DNA of 45,967 bases from Candidatus Diapherotrites archaeon LH_S9. Lineage in GTDB: Archaea; B1Sed10-29; WALL01; JAGXON01. The stretch's first letter is position 1. Every line of letters begins with the position of its first letter. The notes beneath the pieces are model-generated. The model worked only from the letters and a program-made list of their open reading frames with translations, ran no database searches and had not been told where the DNA came from. A program made the translations under genes and the position numbers. The stretch spans positions 1-45,967 of the forward strand of contig JAGXON010000001.1 of the NCBI GenBank assembly GCA_023659865.1, read 5' to 3'. Of this stretch, positions 12,444 to 40,682 are shown piece by piece.

Positions 12444-12584
12444 TGCAGGGGAAGGGGTTCGAACCCTTGGAGGCATTGCTCAAACGCTAGCGGGATTGCT
12501 TGGGCGTCTTCTAAGCCAATGGATCTTGAGTCCATCCCGTTTAGCCGTTCGCGGCGAGAACTTTGGCCGCTTCGGTACCCCTGC
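12444..12584 (-). tRNA. tRNA-Leu(CAA), 141 nt precursor with probably two introns outside the anticodon loop
   Basis: Acceptor GCAGGGG/CCCCTGC + A73; D arm CCG-AAGCGGCCAAAG-[~21 nt TTCTCGCCGCGAACGGCTAAA]-CGG; anticodon arm ATGGA-CTCAAGA-TCCAT; ~50 nt variable region (expected ~15-17); T arm AAGGG-TTCGAAC-CCCTT. Confidence 0.75.
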
Positions 12585-40544: not shown

Positions 40545-40682
40545 TGCGCCAGCCGGGATCTTCAAAATCTTTCAGTTAATTCTTTTTTTTGAACCCGGGT
40601 CGCAAGCTGTTCCCGTCCTTTTGCTCGAGCTTTTTCTAAAAGGTCGTGGGAAGCTTGAGTCCTACCACTAGACTACTGGCGC
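40545..40682 (-). tRNA. tRNA-Gly(CCC), 138 nt precursor with a canonical 37/38 intron (~38 nt) and a T-loop intron (~29 nt)
   Basis: GCGCCAG/CTGGCGC, A73; D stem GTC/GAC; anticodon CAAGC-TTCCCA[CGACCTTTTAGAAAAAGCTCGAGCAAAAGGACGGGAAC]A-GCTTG; T arm CCGGG-TTCAA[AAAAAAGAATTAACTGAAAGATTTTGAAG]AT-CCCGG. Excised length 71 nt. Confidence 0.88.

Follow-up and report, generated by a model that had tools for sequence, protein, structure and literature searches.

Position 59/60 belongs to the known intron sites of archaeal tRNA genes, and the splicing endonucleases (EndA) of the alpha4 and alpha2 types are said to accompany introns that occur singly and in the canonical place (PMC4090602). The alpha4 enzyme is also rated as narrow (PMC6379350). 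Several bulge-helix-bulge (BHB) introns are found in archaea such as Thermoproteales, Nanoarchaeum and ARMAN (PMC4090602, PMC4033280). The rule is that a homotetrameric EndA is accompanied by single canonical introns, and a heteromeric or three-unit EndA by many and odd ones. Methanothermobacter, a euryarchaeon, is listed among the multi-intron archaea as well (PMC4033280), and therefore the rule of the subunit types is not absolute.

The tRNA-Gly(CCC) gene described here shares with Thermoproteales, Nanoarchaeum and ARMAN the combination of a 37/38 intron and an intron at a non-canonical site, but it comes from another lineage and the EndA detected in its genome is a single-unit one, neither heteromeric nor three-unit. 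Since 59/60 has already been published as an intron site, the position and its motif are not new; with this gene, a disrupted tRNA of a known kind is recorded in one more lineage, in a setting that challenges the above rule. This lineage is a class, represented here by 19 species whose genomes measure roughly 0.3-1.3 Mb, on which no paper was found in the open-licence literature; nor did that literature yield a paper on splicing endonucleases and BHB introns in DPANN archaea. The genome bin that carries the gene (G000) is 66% complete and consists of 38 contigs.

The gene has a length of 138 nt and is located on the minus strand at positions 40545-40682 of the window, that is, the whole stretch of 45,967 nucleotides that was analysed. 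It is the best solution of an intron-aware scanner written for this analysis, which removes candidate BHB introns and rates the joined sequence for its likeness to a tRNA. Three exons were delimited by the scanner, all on the minus strand: exon 1 (36 nt, 40647-40682, tRNA positions 1-37), exon 2 (21 nt, 40588-40608, positions 38-59) and exon 3 (14 nt, 40545-40558, positions 60-73). The locus and its two BHB-like introns, a canonical one of 38 nt and one of about 29 nt in the T-loop, had been proposed in an earlier note made from the sequence alone, and they are backed by a paralogue, by recurrence in the same genome, by relatives and by covariation at base 57, all of which are presented below.

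Intron 1 (38 nt, position 37/38, 40609-40646, minus strand; scanner and helix-shuffle test) has a central helix of TTCC (40652-40649) with GGGA (40614-40611), including one U-G pair, and bulges CA^C and AC^A. Its outer helix is the anticodon stem, and its inner helix is broken by one A-A mismatch. The register initially suggested, TCCC/GGGA with ACG and ACA bulges, was dropped on grounds of geometry in favour of this one, in which the anticodon loop has 7 nt. Intron 2 has 29 nt and interrupts the T-loop at 59/60 (40559-40587, minus strand; scanner, shuffle test and covariation). In its central helix TTCA (40593-40590) is paired with TGAA (40564-40561); the bulges are AA^A and GA^T, and the T-stem serves as the outer helix. 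The junction had been placed around 58/59; either register leads to the identical product, but the 3-4-3 geometry (3-nt bulges around a 4-bp helix) fits 59/60 alone and 58/59 was abandoned.

Excision of both introns yields the previously proposed product of 71 nt, a count which includes A73; CCA is not encoded. According to the scanner, all stems of the spliced tRNA are perfect and the conserved bases are present, and the predicted fold is a complete cloverleaf of -31.8 kcal/mol. Structure modelling of the junctions was one of the checks put forward in the earlier note. Both 37/38 and 59/60 are able to form the 3-4-3 BHB, but in the minimum-energy fold of the T-arm UUCAAAA pairs with UUUUGAA, leaving a 3′ bulge only (-9.9 kcal/mol, vs -4.9 kcal/mol for the full 3-4-3 form with its 5′ bulge). 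The splicing form is not picked out by the energy model at the T-arm because the A-run can slip. Taken alone, the statistics of the gene are modest: at each site, about 4% of shuffled introns attain a complete central helix, and for the T-loop motif a shuffle test on this one gene gives a P of only about 0.045.

Genes such as this one, with an intron in the T-loop, are overlooked by tRNA finders at standard settings. At defaults, ARAGORN and Rfam reported only tRNA-Thr and tRNA-Ser in the window and missed tRNA-Gly(CCC), which appeared merely as a 14.8-bit fragment in a relaxed Rfam search. When introns were allowed, ARAGORN found those of the anticodon loop, missed those of the T-loop and mislabelled several genes. 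The scanner, applied to both strands of the whole window, returned four tRNAs (Gly, Leu(CAA), Thr and Ser) and zero false candidates above threshold. As first noticed, two of these four, tRNA-Gly(CCC) and tRNA-Leu(CAA), have double introns, and the Thr and Ser genes have none. In other genomes, some two-intron solutions in G002 (L113, L116) look like artefacts of adjacent repeated tRNA sequence and were left uncounted, as were pattern matches that lack a cloverleaf (e.g., L223, L231, and L243).

By an approximate tally of this 66%-complete bin, in which three genes were assigned by eye, about 24 of about 34 tRNA genes bear introns. These are distributed as 12 at 37/38, seven at 59/60, six in the D-loop and three in the variable arm, with two introns in four genes. 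After removal of its own 37/38 intron, the paralogue tRNA-Gly(GCC) is distinguished from tRNA-Gly(CCC) by four of 71 positions, and its T-loop is uninterrupted. The layout of tRNA-Gly(CCC) is repeated in tRNA-Ile(UAU) (L250, G000:C32 near 47198), with a 112-nt intron at 37/38 and a 13-nt intron at 59/60. Certain 59/60 introns of the bin have just 13-15 nt, too short for a true inner helix, and therefore represent relaxed bulge-helix-loop forms. Taken together, six 59/60 introns of this genome (all except that of tRNA-Ile(UAU), which was a later find) show 20 central-helix pairs vs 10.9 in shuffled introns (P=5e-5).

Within the class, glycine tRNA genes that fit the 59/60 pattern occur in three of the 19 species, and, by a wider pattern, complete tRNAs with 59/60 introns in nine genomes, this one counted. 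For instance, the Gly(CCC) gene of G010 is interrupted at 59/60 by an intron of 33 nt with the full 3-4-3 motif, and the Gly(TCC) gene of G012 has introns at both 37/38 and 59/60. Gly(CCC) is intronless in G006, G008, G013, and G014. The record "archaeon isolate CSMAG_438" carries a tRNA-Gly sequence identical to that of G010, and the record "archaeon isolate Dive96_bin3.463" agrees with G012 in the position of EndA.

A scan of 84,980 species for the glycine T-loop insert produced 66 stretches, and glycine 59/60 introns were confirmed in Aenigmatarchaeota, Woesearchaeota and other Nanoarchaeota, Micrarchaeota, Asgard archaea, and Thermoproteota. Those of the other phyla have the same insertion point and the same TTCR/YGAA central helix as the gene under study, but their intron sequences are mostly unrelated to it and most of the genes lack a 37/38 intron; the double 37/38 and 59/60 layout is present in L131, L132, and L153. 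Among matches picked by flanking sequence alone, xGAA faces TTCR in 33 of 43 archaeal inserts vs one of 19 bacterial chance matches. In matches picked the same way, base 57 and the facing intron base change together (A57:T 21, A57:C 0; G57:C 6, G57:T wobble 2; Fisher P=6e-5, uncorrected for phylogeny). The outcome for base 57 is the same in an enlarged collection of 52 distinct introns, which is partly scanner-selected (29/1 vs 3/11). Related sequences in it are not wholly independent, but 21/1 vs 3/11 is still obtained when one intron per cluster is retained. This covariation is comparative evidence for the predicted splicing helix of the T-loop. Two glycine tRNA genes of Aenigmatarchaeota isolate S140_133_esom (L163 and L183) have an identical 10-nt insert at 59/60, AATCCGGGAT, and these are the shortest T-loop introns among those found.

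The occurrence of the insert in so many genes bears on the idea that it belongs to a decaying, unspliced pseudogene and that GGG codons are read by tRNA-Gly(UCC) instead. The T-arm fold, which is not a clean 3-4-3, and the modest shuffle P of the single gene would suit this idea, but no stem is damaged, the place of the insert matches a published intron site in register, and six further tRNA genes of the same genome use 59/60, as do relatives and other phyla with covariation, so that decay is considered very improbable. An error of assembly or binning, conceivable for an incomplete genome in 38 contigs, has a negligible probability, given that same-site introns exist in other, separately recorded genomes and that the same contig holds tRNA-Leu(CAA) with its D-loop and variable-arm introns.

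The preferred interpretation is a functional tRNA-Gly(CCC) gene with two BHB introns, which would very probably be cut by EndA and ligated to a normal cloverleaf. In the predicted transcript, tRNA bases 32-35 and 54-57 would find their pairing partners in the 3′ part of the respective intron. At either site EndA would then cut in both of the flanking bulges, and the exons would be joined by a ligase, which in the relatives is RtcB. Against this account stand the minimum-energy fold of the T-arm, the failure to find RtcB in the bin, and the description of the EndA type as narrow (PMC6379350, PMC4090602).

Pfam and class-profile searches located one EndA gene in this genome (170 aa, C32:94874-95383), and the profile gave exactly one full-length EndA here and in each of 12 relatives, one of which is 98% complete. 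The heteromeric or three-unit endonuclease that the earlier note had expected was not found; the only enzyme detected is single-unit and Methanocaldococcus-like. It resembles the M. jannaschii alpha4 enzyme in length (170 vs 171 aa), in alignment (a single one-residue gap) and in fold (TM 0.91 over 170 columns between the monomer model and PDB 1a79), and it has the gene features of the alpha4 type, namely a single gene of 170 aa with N- and C-terminal domains and candidate catalytic Tyr, His, and Lys. Judged by position, Tyr106, His116, and Lys147, invariant in alignment A1, are likely the catalytic residues. There is no insertion relative to 1a79. When aligned with the alpha subunit of A. pernix, the enzyme matches it only from residue 47 of the latter onwards, past the Crenarchaea-specific loop (Lys44); the loop therefore appears to be absent from this EndA. 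Single EndA genes were also found in four Woesearchaeota/Nanoarchaeota records with 59/60 glycine introns (G067, G070, G071, and G074).

Reviews tie the alpha4 type to single canonical introns, whereas many non-canonical and double introns, rather than single introns at 37/38 only, are found in this genome and its class. An endonuclease restricted to canonical sites had been named in advance as an argument against the T-loop intron, and by homology the enzyme goes half of the way there; it is not taken as a refutation, because both introns can form the 3-4-3 structure and the whole class pairs such introns with this EndA. The mismatch between enzyme and introns could also be explained if the introns are real but a diverged second (beta) subunit turns EndA into a broad-specificity heterotetramer, as in Crenarchaeota. 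Such a gene might lie in the missing part of a bin just 66% complete, a beta subunit may be short and diverged in Crenarchaeota (by sequence, the short subunit of P. aerophilum reaches only E=0.009), and one class member outside the profiled set, G016, has two clear EndA genes in the Pfam search. On the contrary, the same search does detect weaker second copies of EndA in the genomes of other archaea. In the 13 profiled genomes (this bin 66% complete, the relatives up to 98%) neither a credible second subunit nor a three-unit chain was found, an 8.5-bit fragment in G013 being the only extra. A hidden subunit is accordingly regarded as unlikely, though less so than decay of the gene, and the single EndA, probably as a homotetramer, would do all the cutting.

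Either the alpha4-like EndA has a wider specificity than supposed, or a partner subunit has so far escaped detection. The chances seem evenly balanced that, throughout the small-genome class, a lone single-unit EndA of the alpha4 type, devoid of the known broad-specificity loops, takes care of the T-loop introns, the D-loop introns and the relaxed ones (bulge-helix-loop, 13-15 nt), in which case the subunit type would not set the diversity of introns, contrary to the reviews. The 59/60 introns of 10-40 nt offer small test substrates, and the EndAs of the class are candidate enzymes.

Past helix 2 in the N-domain of EndA, an EKRK-like basic stretch (L033:1276-1785, alignment A1) is nearly invariant in the class and not present in the M. 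jannaschii enzyme; a contact with RNA is possible. The RtcB ligase is present in 12 of the 13 relatives and was not found in the 66%-complete bin. Within reading frames of approximately 980-1016 aa in three genomes (G003:C43, G005:C4, and G009:C48), RtcB matches in two pieces, the pattern that an intein within this ligase would give.

Introns at further sites were observed in the leucine tRNA genes of the bin. In tRNA-Leu(CAA), at 12444-12584 of the window on the minus strand, a 22-nt intron is placed in the D-loop and a 35-nt intron in the variable arm. The genes for tRNA-Leu(UAA) and tRNA-Leu(UAG) (L030, G000:C22 near 91975, and L022, G000:C32 near 5252) have inserts of 35 nt in the variable arm that are identical to each other; this identity suggests gene conversion, a duplication or the transfer of an intron.
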